Positions 24,469 through 62,053 of a stretch of 64,000 bases of DNA are shown piece after piece. The notes below the pieces were generated by a model. That model did no database searches. It saw only the letters and a program-made list of their open reading frames with translations, and was not told the DNA's origin. Each line of letters opens with the position of its first letter. Positions within the stretch are counted from its first letter, which is position 1. Source of the DNA: Corynebacterium glyciniphilum AJ 3170 (GTDB lineage Bacteria; Actinomycetota; Actinomycetes; Mycobacteriales; Mycobacteriaceae); the NCBI RefSeq assembly GCF_000626675.1, contig NZ_CP006842.1, forward strand, positions 3,410,001 to 3,474,000. The letters run 5' to 3'. The translations under genes were made by a program, and so were the position numbers.

Positions 24469-26916
24469 ATGATCGGTGCTGGAGCGAGTGGGGGCTCGGC
24501 AAGGTTCGCGCGAGTGCTTGGTGATATCGATGTCGAGGACTTCGGAGACCCAGCGCAAGAGCTGTCTCTATTCTCTGGCTGCGAGTCCGTCGCGGACGTG
24601 CGATCAGTTCTTCGCGAGCAGGTGGAGCTTGAGACTTCCGTGATGCTTGATCTTGTTGCGGAGACTGACGCGTTCGATGTGATTGAGCTGATGCGGATGC
24701 GTGAGTTCCCCCCGGTTCCCGATCCACGAGTGACGACGCCAGGCGGGTCTGCGTTGGCCGTGGAGTTGGTGGCTGCCATGCTGCTTTCTCGCTCTAGTCG
24801 GAAGCCGAGCGATGTCCCCCGTGAGGAGACTCGTCCGCACGAGCAAATCGCAGAGCTGCACGCGCGCGCCAAGCGGCTTGCGCGACTGGCGACATACCGG
24901 CAGCAGTATGAGGCCTATCTCAGCGAGCATGTGCTGGCGCGTCTTGCGTCGGAGTACCAGGGTGCCGTGCTGAACATTCGAAACCTTCAGTACGACCACA
25001 TCAGGGATGAGCAGGAGCGTCGTCTCTTCCAGCATCCCGTGGTCGAGGGACTCATGAATCAGCACCTGGGCTACGGGTACGACGACGTGGTCGGTGTCCG
25101 TAATGCGCTGAAAGCTATTTCTGCAGATCGGATGACGAGTCTCCGTGATGAAACCGGCGACATCATGCTCGAATACCAGGGGGTCTCTCCGGAAGAGATG
25201 CCGGAACAAGTGATCGCCCGTTTCCGGGAAGCAATGATCGACCTCATGTTCCTGCCTGGGGAGCGTGCGACGATCCGCGCCAACGAACTTGCCGAAGCTG
25301 GCCAGCTAGACGAGGCGAGAGTTCTCACCGTCCTGAACTCGTACTCCCAAGTCTTCGATGATTCGATCGCTGCGGGGACGAGAGTCTTCGATCTCCTTAC
25401 GGCCACCAATTCGTTCCTCATCACTCCGCTCGTTGCGGACGGCGTAGGTGGCTTTGTGTCGACAGTCAATGATCCTGGGCTCGACTCGCTCCGCCGTGTA
25501 CTTGAGCGAGCACTCGCGCCACACTCGTCCGACATGCGGCGCTACGACCAGCGGGCTCGGCAGTCGGTAAGCGAGGGCCTTGCAATCGCAAGTTTCGAAC
25601 GTGTTCTCGGGTGCGCGGCGCTTCATTCGGGTTTCCATTACTACGCGGCGAAGAAGGGACGGAGCGAGGCTGACGTCGATGCCGGATGCGGCGACGTAAA
25701 CTTTGTGGCGGACCGCGTCGAGGGAGACGGTCTCTTCTTGGTCGACGATGTCGCGATCATTGTCGAGGTGAAGGCGAAGTCCGTCGCTAGTCAGTCTCGA
25801 CGTGGCGATGTTCGCAGACTCGAATCGGATCTGAAGGCGACGATCGGCGACGCGAACAAACAAGCCGCACGGCTGCAACGGCTGATTGAAGTGAACAGAG
25901 GCGTCTGGCTCGCACCGGACTCATGGCTCGATCTGTCCCAGGTCCGCGAGGTGCGTTCGGTCATCATCTTGCTAGACGATGTCGGTCCGCTCGGTGTCGC
26001 CATTGGAGACCTTCAGGCTGCTGGACTGCTCGCTGAGCGGCGGCCTCCGTGGGTTGCGTCGTTGCATGACTTGATGGTCATCGCCGAGATTTGCGATCGG
26101 CCCAGTGAGTTTCTTCTGTATCTGCGACGACGGACTGACAGTGGAGTCGCCACGTTCTACCGCGGGGCCGATGAACTCGATCTCTTCATGTTGTTCCTCG
26201 ACGGAGACCTATACGTCGACGATGACCCGGACGAAGTGCGGCGTGAACATGTGTCCGTCCCTCCAGTGAAGGCCCGGGGCAGAAGGCGGCGCGACGAGAG
26301 TGCAGTCGGGACTATGGTTGCCGATCACTGCCAACCGCTAAGCGAGTGGTACTTGCGCGATCAGATTCCCGAGTTTGAACCGCGCCCCGCGAAACCAACT
26401 TTCAATATTGCTCAGAAGATCGTCCCGATCGTCGATTCGATCGCTGCCCGAGGTCAGCCTGGCTGGTTACGATGCACGACTGATCTGCTCGGCCTTGCCG
26501 GTGAGACGCAGACACGACTAGTGAAGGGCATCCGCGAGTGTTGTCGGAGAACCTCCGTGGACGGCAACTACCACGACATGCTCATATCTTTCGCGGGCAT
26601 GTGGGGGCATCCCACCGTTTTCATTGGAGTAGCTCCGGAGACCGGGAACACCCTCGCTTACCGCGATCAACTGTCTCAGTATGTGCGAGTCAAGGGGTAC
26701 CAGCTGCAATCGGATCGAGCGTATGGTCTTCTCTTCAGCGCAAAAGGGGCTCTCCTCGAGTTCATCTACCTGACGAATCCTCCGCGTTCCGATCCGGGTC
26801 TCGACCGATTGGTGGTAGAGATGGGCCTGCAGCCCGTTGGGCGCGCCGGCAGGCCCATCCCGCCGTCCGCGCGCCGACCAACCAAGAGGCTGCGTGGGAA
26901 GAGGAAGCGCCGCTAG
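24469..26916 (+). CDS. 815-residue protein with PD-(D/E)XK nuclease-like core, possible defence protein
   Basis: The first 360 residues are helical, with charged segments such as AELHARAKRLARLATYRQQYEAY. The block at 415-470 has the form of a PD-(D/E)XK nuclease: acidic E418/D420 before GLFLVDDVAIIVEVKAKS, where E433 and K435 form the E-x-K, followed by a helix with KQAARLQRLIE. The C-terminal third (about 640-790) is a separate domain, and the tail RPTKRLRGKRKRR is strongly basic. There is no membrane segment or helicase motif. Base composition is visibly lower in GC than dprE1/dprE2, with rarer codons, pointing to transfer. A GGAAGGG site precedes the ATG. Function unknown; nucleic-acid cleavage is inference. 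Confidence 0.7.
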   Translation: MIGAGASGGSARFARVLGDIDVEDFGDPAQELSLFSGCESVADVRSVLREQVELETSVMLDLVAETDAFDVIELMRMREFPPVPDPRVTTPGGSALAVELVAAMLLSRSSRKPSDVPREETRPHEQIAELHARAKRLARLATYRQQYEAYLSEHVLARLASEYQGAVLNIRNLQYDHIRDEQERRLFQHPVVEGLMNQHLGYGYDDVVGVRNALKAISADRMTSLRDETGDIMLEYQGVSPEEMPEQVIARFREAMIDLMFLPGERATIRANELAEAGQLDEARVLTVLNSYSQVFDDSIAAGTRVFDLLTATNSFLITPLVADGVGGFVSTVNDPGLDSLRRVLERALAPHSSDMRRYDQRARQSVSEGLAIASFERVLGCAALHSGFHYYAAKKGRSEADVDAGCGDVNFVADRVEGDGLFLVDDVAIIVEVKAKSVASQSRRGDVRRLESDLKATIGDANKQAARLQRLIEVNRGVWLAPDSWLDLSQVREVRSVIILLDDVGPLGVAIGDLQAAGLLAERRPPWVASLHDLMVIAEICDRPSEFLLYLRRRTDSGVATFYRGADELDLFMLFLDGDLYVDDDPDEVRREHVSVPPVKARGRRRRDESAVGTMVADHCQPLSEWYLRDQIPEFEPRPAKPTFNIAQKIVPIVDSIAARGQPGWLRCTTDLLGLAGETQTRLVKGIRECCRRTSVDGNYHDMLISFAGMWGHPTVFIGVAPETGNTLAYRDQLSQYVRVKGYQLQSDRAYGLLFSAKGALLEFIYLTNPPRSDPGLDRLVVEMGLQPVGRAGRPIPPSARRPTKRLRGKRKRR

Positions 26917-27031
26917 GTCGTGTTACGAAAGTCGTTATTCTAGGCGTCGGTGTGTCTGACCACCACAAAGAAGGTTCCCCCGTTCACGATTGTTGGTGTC
27001 GAATCATCAACGTGAACAAGGAAACCTTGGC

Positions 27032-27718
27032 GTGCACACCCGACCCGCCAGCGCCAGACACGACCTCACCGACGACCAGTGGAACCTCCTGAAACCACTA
27101 CTACCAGCACAGCAACACCTCGGCCGGCCCCGGTCCTGGTGTCCACGAAGCCTGGTCAACGGCATCTTGTTCCAGGTACGCACCGGTATTCCCTGGCGTG
27201 ATCTCGCCGAACGCTACGGCCCCTGGTGGCGGGTCTACGATCTGTTCACCTGCTACCAACGCACCGGTGTGTGGTCGAAGATCCACACCCAACTGCTGTC
27301 GCAAGTACACCAGAACAGTCGACTATCGTGGGAGTTCAGCGTGGACTCCACCACCAGTCGAGGGCACGTCCATGCCACCGGGACCCCCGTCATGATAGTC
27401 ACCACCGTGACCGTGATGAACCCGCTGACCACGGCTTTGGCCGAGGTGTCTGGTCAACAAAAATCCACCTCGCCGTCGACGCCGGGGTGTGCCCGGTCTC
27501 GTGCGTGCTGACCCCGGAACAGGCCGGCGACGAGCCCCACAGATGCCCGAGGTGCTTGACCGTGTCCGGGTACCGACACCGGGACCTGGCAGACCCTGCA
27601 CCACACCGTTACGGGTGTTGGCCGACAAGGCGTACTCGTCGCGCAGAAACCGCAGCTACCTGCGAGGTAGAGGAATCCCCACGACGATCTCACAGCCTGG
27701 TGATCAGGTAGGACATGT
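27032..27718 (+). pseudogene. IS5-type transposase, frameshifted and truncated
   Basis: The N-terminal part (RHDLTDDQWNLLKPLLP, FQVRTGIPWRDLAERYGPW, CYQRTGVW, FSVDST) is an IS5-group DDE transposase. The frame then shifts twice: near 27375-27395 into the frame reading STKIHLAVDAG, and near 27535-27545 into the frame reading RVLADKAYSSRRNRSYLRGRGIPTTISQP. Homology ends after GDQVGH, so the C-terminal third and the right IS end are gone. GTG 27032 is the likely original start. The left IS end may be near 26918, which I could not confirm. It is dead and marks the downstream edge of the accessory islet. Confidence 0.8.
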
Positions 27719-59904: not shown

Positions 59905-61428
59905 TCACACTCCCCTGCTGAGGTCCGAGAACTTCGAGTAGTGCAGCTGGTGTGCGACCTGGATCGTGCCGATGGGGCCACCGCGGTGCTTGGCCAGAAT
60001 CAGGTCGGCCTCGCCGGCTCGCTCATGATCCCTGTTCTGGGCGTCCGGGCGGTTGATGAGGAGGACGATGTCGGCGTCCTGCTCCAGCGAGCCGGACTCA
60101 CGCAGGTCCGACACACGCGGGAGCGCGTCGTCACCACGTGACTCCACGCCACGGTTCAGCTGCGAAATCGCGATCAAGGGCACGTCAACCTCCTTGGCAA
60201 GAAGCTTCAGCTGACGCGAGAACTCGGAAACCTCCTGCTGACGGGACTCGACCTTCTTACCCGAACTCATCAGCTGCAGGTAGTCGACGACGATCAAGCC
60301 GAGGTCGTGCTTCTGCTTGAGCCGCCGTGCCTTGGCCCGGATTTCCGTCATCGTGAGGTTGGGTGAATCGTCGATGTAGATCGGCGCATTCTCGATGGCG
60401 GTGACCCGCTGGGTCAGTTTGTCCCACTGCGAGTCCACCATCTTGCCGCCACGCATCACCGACAGCGGCACTTCAGCCTCTGCGGAGAACACACGCATCA
60501 TCACCTCAGATTTGCTCATCTCGAGGGAGAACAGCACCGAGGCACGATTCTGCTGAACCGACACCGAACGCATGAAGTCCATGGCCAGAGTGGACTTACC
60601 TACACCTGGACGGGCCGCGACGATGATCATCTGACCGCCGCGCAGACCGTTCGTCATCTCGTCGAGTTCGCTGAAGCCGGTGAGCACCCCCTCACCCTGG
60701 CCATCACCGTTCTCAAGTGCATCCAGTTCGTCCATGGTGGACTCCAGCAGATCCTGGAGCACCATGTAGTCCTCCGACGCAGACTCGTTGGTGATGTTGA
60801 ACATCTCCTGCTGCGCACGGTCCACGACACTCTCGAGCTCGTTCCCCTCCAGCCCGGAATAGCCGTACTGCACGATCCTGGTCCCCGCAGACACCAGACG
60901 GCGCAGGACGGCCTTCTCGGCGACGAGGTCCGCGTAGTAACCGGCATTGGCCGCGGTCGGGACTTTGGAGGACAGTTCGTGCAGATACGGTGCGCCACCC
61001 ACGCTGTCGAGGATGGCGTTGTTGTCCAGCCGCCCTGCGAGGATCACGGGATCGACCTCCATGCCCTCGCCGTAGAGCTCAAGCATGGTCTCATAGATCG
61101 TCCGGTGTGCCGGGCGGTAGAAATCGTCCGGACGAAGACGCTCGACGACATCAGCGATGGCGTCCTTACTCAGCATCATGCCACCGAGCACGCCCATCTC
61201 CGCCTCGGTGTTCTGCGGCATCTGTCGTGGCTCGGCGAATGCGCCACCTGCACCGGTGCCGGTGTCCCGTCGCTTGTAGCTTCCCCGCCCCCCGGAGCCA
61301 CCCTGGCCGGACGGCTGCGCTGACGCGAAAGCCTCACTGTCCCACTGGTCAGGCTCCGGCGGCAGGGGAGCGTCCCCCATGTCGTCGGCGAAGCTGTCGC
61401 GTGCCCGTTCCGGTGTGCTCATGTCCAT
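59905..61428 (-). CDS. dnaB: Replicative DNA helicase DnaB
   Basis: DnaB unwinds DNA at the replication fork. From ATG 61428 the protein has 507 residues, with an N-terminal extension rich in Gly/Ser (about 45 residues), the N-terminal domain NTEAEMGVLGGMMLSKDAI, and the RecA-like domain with Walker A IVAARPGVGKSTLAMDF (about 270-280), LGLIVVDYLQLM as Walker B, and the C-terminal VAHQLHYSKFSDL. No intein interrupts the ATPase, unlike in M. tuberculosis. The GGAGGGGG site lies 11 bases upstream of ATG 61428 and nearer than for other choices. Upstream lies a group of DnaA-box-like sequences. Confidence 0.96.
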   Translation of the reverse strand: MDMSTPERARDSFADDMGDAPLPPEPDQWDSEAFASAQPSGQGGSGGRGSYKRRDTGTGAGGAFAEPRQMPQNTEAEMGVLGGMMLSKDAIADVVERLRPDDFYRPAHRTIYETMLELYGEGMEVDPVILAGRLDNNAILDSVGGAPYLHELSSKVPTAANAGYYADLVAEKAVLRRLVSAGTRIVQYGYSGLEGNELESVVDRAQQEMFNITNESASEDYMVLQDLLESTMDELDALENGDGQGEGVLTGFSELDEMTNGLRGGQMIIVAARPGVGKSTLAMDFMRSVSVQQNRASVLFSLEMSKSEVMMRVFSAEAEVPLSVMRGGKMVDSQWDKLTQRVTAIENAPIYIDDSPNLTMTEIRAKARRLKQKHDLGLIVVDYLQLMSSGKKVESRQQEVSEFSRQLKLLAKEVDVPLIAISQLNRGVESRGDDALPRVSDLRESGSLEQDADIVLLINRPDAQNRDHERAGEADLILAKHRGGPIGTIQVAHQLHYSKFSDLSRGV

Positions 61429-61497
61429 GATTCTAGCCCCCTCCTCGCACTTCCTCGGCCTCCGGATAATCCTACGCGACGCACTACGGCGGGAAAG

Positions 61498-61794
61498 TTG
61501 TCCACAGGTGGTGTGCGTGAACTGTGGAGAAAATGTGCGCTCGTCCGCATCCGCGCAGTTCCGCTTGTGGATAACCTGTGGACAGAAACCGTACTGACCT
61601 GCCTTTATTCGCAAACACGCTGGTGAACGACCCAAAAGTGTGAAATATAAACACGGTGGCACCGTGGACAACATGTGTAACCGCAGGCCAAGCGAGAGCA
61701 TCGCAGCATTCTCCGAGGTCACGGCATAACTAAATATGCGCATAAATCCCGAATATCGACGGAGGCTATCCCGAGTTGTCCACAGTTATCCACA
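61498..61794. promoter_or_regulatory. Cluster of DnaA-box-like 9-mers upstream of dnaB
   Basis: Matching or near-matching DnaA boxes (TTWTNCACA type) are: TTGTCCACA 61498-61506; TGTGGAGAA 61523-61531; TGTGGATAA 61566-61574; TGTGGACAG 61577-61585; CGTGGACAA 61663-61671; TTGTCCACA 61776-61784; TTATCCACA 61786-61794. Two of them are perfect TTATCCACA on either strand. Between them are AT-rich stretches (about 61638-61652 and 61727-61757). This is far above chance for 300 bp. There is no dnaA or dnaN here, so it is probably control of dnaB by DnaA or a DnaA-titrating site rather than the main origin. Confidence 0.75.
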
Positions 61795-61848
61795 GGGCGG
61801 TGATGTCCTGTGCACAACAGTACCGGTGAGCGCGTGCCCGGATACGCC

Positions 61849-61889
61849 ACAGGCCCGCCGACCGGTCGGAATGACCGGGGCGGGCCTGT
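61849..61889. terminator. Long hairpin downstream of rplI
   Basis: Outer arms ACAGGCCCGCC (61849-61859) and GGCGGGCCTGT (61879-61889) pair perfectly; inner arms CCGGTC and GACCGG add six more base pairs around a GGAAT loop. It lies about 165 bases beyond the rplI stop and 60 bases from the nearest DnaA box. No T-tract follows on either side. It probably ends the rpsF-ssb-rplI transcript. Confidence 0.6.
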
Positions 61890-62053
61890 CTGGCGATGCT
61901 GTTGTCTTACAGATGGTGGCGTTCTTCGCCGCCTGTGCGGATACCCGGACTGCGGACACACGCCGGTTGTCTAGGCCGGGACCCCGGGTGTCTAAGCCGG
62001 GGGTGTCCGAAGAACCGTAGCGGGTTCCTGCGACAGGGGAGACGAGGAGAGAA

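Follow-up and report, generated by a model that had tools for sequence, protein, structure and literature searches.

A conserved DnaA-box cluster with a fixed-spacing companion motif between rplI and dnaB in Corynebacterium glyciniphilum and its relatives

Why does Corynebacterium glyciniphilum carry a dense array of DnaA boxes in the interval between dnaB and rplI? In the window (the whole stretch of 64,000 nucleotides that was analysed), an earlier note had counted seven DnaA-box-like 9-mers at 61498-61794, and our scan, allowing at most one mismatch to TTRTCCACA, found seven in that interval; four of them are perfect, where the note had given two (Table 1). With TTRTNCACA and at most one mismatch, the bin 61501-61800 holds 8 sites, against 2 in the runner-up 300-bp bin of the window. 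Genome-wide, perfect TTRTCCACA occurs 41 times (25 + 16), compared with 22 sites for the pattern read backwards as a control, and at least four perfect boxes in 300 bp are found at only three places, namely the dnaB-rplI cluster and the two clusters flanking dnaA. Box density at this locus is not the genome average, and it is equalled only at oriC. Pfam identified dnaB, rplI, ssb and rpsF at the locus, and dnaA and dnaN at the start of the contig; for dnaB, the alignment makes ATG 61422 the preferred start, with 61428 possible.

Table 1. Features in and around the interval between dnaB and rplI (window positions).
Feature	Position	Strand	Basis or remark
dnaB, replicative helicase	59905..61422	-	Pfam DnaB + DnaB_C; ORF
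Candidate -10 hexamer TAGAAT	61430..61435	-	by reading; 7 nt ahead of ATG 61422
DnaA box TTGTCCACA, perfect	61498..61506	+	sequence scan
DnaA box TTCTCCACA, 1 mismatch	61523..61531	-	sequence scan
DnaA box TTATCCACA, perfect; second of 11-bp tandem pair	61566..61574	-	scan; pair kept in relatives
DnaA box CTGTCCACA, 1 mismatch; first of 11-bp tandem pair	61577..61585	-	scan and relatives
Companion motif TGACCTGC, exact	61595..61602	+	k-mer enrichment, alignment
Sigma-70-like match TTGTCC-16-TATATT	61644..61671	-	1 found vs shuffle mean 0.2
DnaA box TTGTCCACG, 1 mismatch	61663..61671	-	scan and alignment; kept in close-relative alignment
Companion-like motif TGGCCTGC, 1 mismatch	61683..61690	-	motif scan
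Palindrome TATGCGCATA	61735..61744		largely kept among 12 close-relative sequences
DnaA box TTGTCCACA, perfect	61776..61784	+	sequence scan
DnaA box TTATCCACA, perfect	61786..61794	+	sequence scan
DnaA-like box TTGTGCACA, fits TTRTNCACA	61809..61817	-	scan; just beyond the seven-box interval
GC-rich inverted repeat, between rplI and cluster	61850..61888		reading and alignment
rplI, ribosomal protein L9	62054..62509	-	Pfam

The cluster is not peculiar to C. glyciniphilum. We searched 60 of 61 Corynebacterium genomes (G045, with a truncated dnaB, was left out); in 56 of them the interval from rplI to dnaB holds three or more perfect TTRTNCACA boxes (mean 4.1), while shuffled intervals had a mean of 0.041 boxes and reached three in 0 of 6000 cases. 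In the nine genomes in which other genes separate dnaB from the cluster, the counted region was set beside rplI after the box positions were known, and the count excluding these nine is 48/51. The four genomes below three boxes have one (G031) or two each (G023, G002, G046). Three further Corynebacterium genomes came from the family search, two with four boxes (G181, G120) and one with a single box (G200), in which the cluster is lost. In the other genera of the family (56 loci from 55 of 57 genomes; G174 and G175 left out, G191 contributing two dnaB loci, L138 short), at least one perfect box is present at 39 loci, compared with 2.3% of shuffles. Corynebacterium loci recovered by protein similarity, which include C. 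glyciniphilum, C. kalidii and C. variabile, carry 4-10 perfect boxes upstream of dnaB in nine of nine cases, and more distant loci have 0 perfect boxes within 1 kb upstream in the 13 that are comparable out of 15 (L016 and L021 are not comparable). The DNA of the interval itself aligns over most of its length with only three other genomes of 151; among close relatives, the order and rough spacing of the boxes are kept and the linkers vary. The layout that recurs in the genus is an 11-bp tandem pair (61577/61566 in the source genome), followed after about 54 bp by another box and, a further 14-15 bp along, by one in inverted orientation.

A second motif lies amid the boxes. The string TGACCTGC is among the commonest 8-mers of the genus regions, present exactly in 33/66 of them when boxes are masked, compared with 1.5 expected from shuffles, in which no 8-mer rose above 15. 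The opposite half of this companion motif, at about 61620-61627 on the minus strand, is degenerate in the source genome and intact in relatives. The distance between motif and boxes is constant: allowing at most two mismatches each, a box stands at +42 from TGACCTGC in 29/60 genus regions (the median for a distance is 2), with further peaks at -47 (19), +53 (16), -44 (15) and -46 (14), and in the 56 loci of other genera the peaks are +42 (31), +31 (30) and -34 (24), with a median of 1. With at most one mismatch, +42 is still seen in 13/60 genus regions and 14/56 other loci, where the permutation maxima are 5 and 4. Outside the genus, boxes occur jointly at -34/+31 in 18/56 loci and at -34/+42 in 19/56, and in 15 of 15 shifted controls the count is 0. 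Joint spacing is rare in the genus (-46/+42 in 6/60, -45/+42 in 2/60) because the upstream distance shifts by a few bases; there the upstream box stands at -44 to -47 rather than at -34, that is 10-13 bp, or about one helical turn, farther away. Since the intervals are otherwise unalignable across genera, this constancy points to selection on the spacing, although kin sequences also share spacing by descent. In other families of the class, with TGACCTGC reversed, a box at -28 is found in 5/36 loci, from five families, and a box at +36 in 5/36, three of them from one genus, with a permutation maximum of 3, which is suggestive only of an element that might reach beyond the family to class level. 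The companion motif at fixed box spacing is new in the present analysis. Two other candidates did not hold up. The palindrome TGACCTGCAGGTCA, at 11 or more of 14 matches, occurs in 16/60 genus regions and in 6/56 and 3/36 of the others, compared with 3-4% of shuffles, and, lacking sharp spacing peaks, it was not supported as a true motif; the dyad TGACCTG-N12..20-CAGGTCA is found at the dnaB cluster in six genomes (G001, G003, G010, G011, G035, G050) and was rejected as a regulon marker, with at least one copy in 31/61 genomes and a few recurring in genome pairs.

DnaA sites upstream of dnaB are a class already known in mycobacteria. According to the published study (PMC7738170), DnaA of M. 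tuberculosis captures the DNA ahead of dnaB (Rv0057) in a pull-down, homologous DnaA-bound regions were found by ChIP-seq in M. smegmatis, and the DnaA variant I282T combines weaker binding at the dnaB site with under-expression of dnaB; this site is one of the few strong ones outside oriC, five strong DnaA regions being described. The corynebacterial cluster very probably corresponds to that site. Both are clusters of DnaA-box-like sites upstream of dnaB in the same family; in our data, the boxes lie directly upstream of dnaB and the architecture is family-wide, with +42 common to both sets. The two differ in that Corynebacterium has many perfect boxes and the motif TGACCTGC, of which the accessible part of PMC7738170 makes no mention for the mycobacterial site, and in that DnaA binding is published for the mycobacterial site whereas the Corynebacterium element is known from sequence alone. 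The earlier note knew of no dnaB-linked cluster described in corynebacteria; this agrees with the open-licence literature, in which we found no description of one, but the claim needs to be read beside the published, DnaA-bound mycobacterial counterpart (PMC7738170).

By a narrow measure, we hold it probable that an ancestral Mycobacteriaceae element, made of DnaA and a partner, lies between rplI and dnaB and couples dnaB to DnaA. DnaA molecules would occupy the boxes, and a second, putative protein would bind TGACCTGC in constant helical register with the boxes, the two forming one nucleoprotein complex that would control dnaB transcription, such that helicase supply would track DnaA activity. 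Such a complex would at the same time keep DnaA in the vicinity of oriC; as the boxes of Corynebacterium are many and near-perfect, the site should also retain several DnaA molecules there. The partner protein, the regulatory effect, its direction and its timing, and with them the function of the element as a whole, are what we infer from the observed boxes, conservation and fixed spacing. A rigid, family-wide DnaA element with a partner motif, found at dnaB, and at dnaA too within Corynebacterium, offers a DNA bait and a target for deletion.

The promoter through which such an element might act was sought at several positions. The hexamer TAGAAT ahead of dnaB (Table 1) could make the dnaB mRNA leaderless, and TANNNT hexamers are similarly placed in close relatives; a hexamer at this place was seen in 9/66 genus regions (a count that omits the source genome's own site, which the scan missed because of where it was anchored) and in 0/56 other-genus loci, and a conserved leaderless dnaB promoter was rejected, the feature being confined to a close clade and clade-specific at best. 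The first hexamer of the sigma-70-like match overlaps the DnaA box at 61663-61671, and the TANNNT placement of this match is not kept across the genus or the family. No conserved -10 after the upstream box, and no promoter position fixed relative to the element, was found in the genus and other-genus loci.

It is possible, though in our opinion not probable, that the cluster is a DnaA sink or an element acting on DnaA activity, like datA or DARS, which stands by dnaB fortuitously, dnaB transcription being incidental; the TGACCTGC partner would then act as IHF or Fis do in E. coli. The genomes in which genes have come between rplI and dnaB bear on this. Inserted genes place dnaB about 2 kb or more from the cluster in 9/60 Corynebacterium genomes; in these nine, the roughly 1.5 kb ahead of dnaB contain no perfect box, and the boxes adjoin rplI, at least three perfect ones in 8/9 and a single one in G031, so that the cluster outlasts the relocation of dnaB, as a sink would. 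In G044, an alpha-amylase gene (Pfam) opposes dnaB; in G011, a tatD and a thiF-family gene do so. In both genomes the cluster is flanked by convergent 3' ends, 2 kb from dnaB. Those of G011 belong to rplI and tatD, and its boxes are spaced (20/162/68) exactly as in G051, G005 and G004, where dnaB adjoins the cluster. As the inserted genes of G044 and G011 oppose dnaB, the cluster is not the immediate dnaB promoter there. The rigid multi-box geometry with its companion motif and the position 38 kb from oriC would also suit a sink. Against it, the cluster, with at least three boxes, stays at dnaB in ten other genomes that have extra genes between rplI and the cluster. Moreover, a GH15-type gene, present in seven of the nine separated genomes (assigned by Pfam in one and by eye in the rest), is oriented like dnaB and could share its transcript; in a DnaB tree these seven genomes are spread over at least two clades plus G007. 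The opposite-strand insertions are each found in a single genome and may be young. Dating of the G011 insertion failed for want of a second genome with the same junction, which is shared by no other of 242 genomes. Since the cluster survives on either side, the element is neither just a dnaB promoter nor tied to rplI; that it usually survives gene separation on one side or the other is new in the present analysis. Coupling of dnaB to DnaA and a role as sink or switch are compatible with each other, and both can be true; DnaA control of dnaB and a titration site like datA were two of the options that the note had given.

The loci datA and DARS1/2 of E. coli are non-coding clusters of DnaA boxes away from oriC, with sites for accessory proteins. 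The dnaB cluster is likewise non-coding, with boxes away from oriC, and its fixed-spacing companion motif might be a site for an accessory DNA-bending protein; it differs in that IHF and Fis are not part of the picture and in that it is always near dnaB or rplI. Actinobacteria are not known to have counterparts of Hda, SeqA, datA or DARS. An actinobacterial counterpart of datA/DARS, in which DnaA, bound to helically phased boxes, would work with a TGACCTGC-binding protein as a switch of DnaA activity, located at dnaB family-wide, perhaps class-wide with the motif reversed, and copied into the dnaA promoter of Corynebacterium, is an idea that we consider rather unlikely as a whole.

The presence of the motif at dnaA also raises the idea that the partner is MtrA or another regulator of the dnaA promoter, and that the element is part of a dnaA-dnaB co-regulon, which we regard as very unlikely. 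In its favour, the box array between rpmH and dnaA includes TGACCTGC-like sites at set distances from boxes (-55, -21, -32) in 6/12 Corynebacterium genomes with contigs starting at or near dnaA, the source genome being among the six and the permutation maximum being 3. However, no such spacing was found in the 29 family-search loci upstream of dnaA (top count 3, permutation maximum 3), which are mostly from other genera and four of which have less than 400 bp upstream, and the MtrA motif as published, GTCACAgcg (PMC2945938), does not match TGACCTGC by eye. Among the papers found for the TGACCTGC string together with dnaA, none, judged by title, deals with the control of dnaA in actinobacteria.

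A second replication origin, or a relic of oriC, is the reading to which we give almost no credit, in spite of a box density like that of oriC. The cluster also resembles oriC of the same genome in box type, and it has the TGACCTGC-like motif in common with the rpmH-dnaA arrays just described. The earlier note had seen the layout of an origin lacking dnaA and dnaN; the window contains neither gene, but dnaA lies nearby, the cluster sitting 38.0-38.3 kb left of its start on the chromosome (source contig of 3,509,786 bp, opening at dnaA, with the oriC clusters in rpmH-dnaA and dnaA-dnaN). Over about 186 kb around dnaA, cumulative GC skew is still dropping from the cluster toward dnaA and is lowest in a 2-kb bin whose end lies 4.2 kb to the right of where dnaA starts; it has no turn at the cluster, which thus neither adjoins dnaA/dnaN nor coincides with the skew minimum. 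The AT-rich segments that had been noted are weak: the interval has 59% GC compared with 65% for the window, and its most AT-rich 40 bp reach 60% AT, a value equalled or beaten in 13/101 window tiles and below the 65% of each oriC half, to which its architecture is also unlike. A skew minimum near dnaA and modest AT-richness disfavour a main origin at the cluster, and with it the second initiation site offered as an option by the note; a second main origin was rejected on the skew, with which rare initiation stays compatible. Gene order relative to oriC presumably differs between the mycobacterial dnaB site and the source genome.

The rplI side of the interval has features of its own. The inverted repeat at 61850..61888 looks like an rplI terminator, though it has no T-run here and the terminator scan did not report it; other k-mers enriched in the genus, ACAACAGC (42/66), CTGTTGTC (41) and CAACAGCA (34), all adjoin rplI and look like an arm of its terminator hairpin, and GTGGATAA (29 regions) is a leftover of the boxes after masking. 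Two CTAGACACCCGG-like repeats at about 61965-62005, between rplI and the cluster, are kept in close relatives.

Other box sites were noticed along the way. In the first 86 kb of the source genome, no comparable cluster of perfect boxes was found beyond oriC. On its other side, 9.7 kb left of dnaA (3498500-3501500, positions 1550-1600), TTGTCCACA and the palindromic TTGTGCACAA stand upstream of an ORF that resembles an ECF sigma factor by eye and that, by gene order, we take to be sigM-like. In G006, five perfect boxes cluster at 25500-27500, 26 kb into the contig and 3' to a rhomboid-like ORF; they may correspond to the Rv0010c-Rv0011c DnaA site of M. tuberculosis. The same genome has numerous TTATCCACA pairs, spaced 43-62 bp, along the chromosome (for example 528087/528130, 542702/542753, 1868346/1868399), and in several Corynebacterium genomes the box counts far exceed the reversed control.
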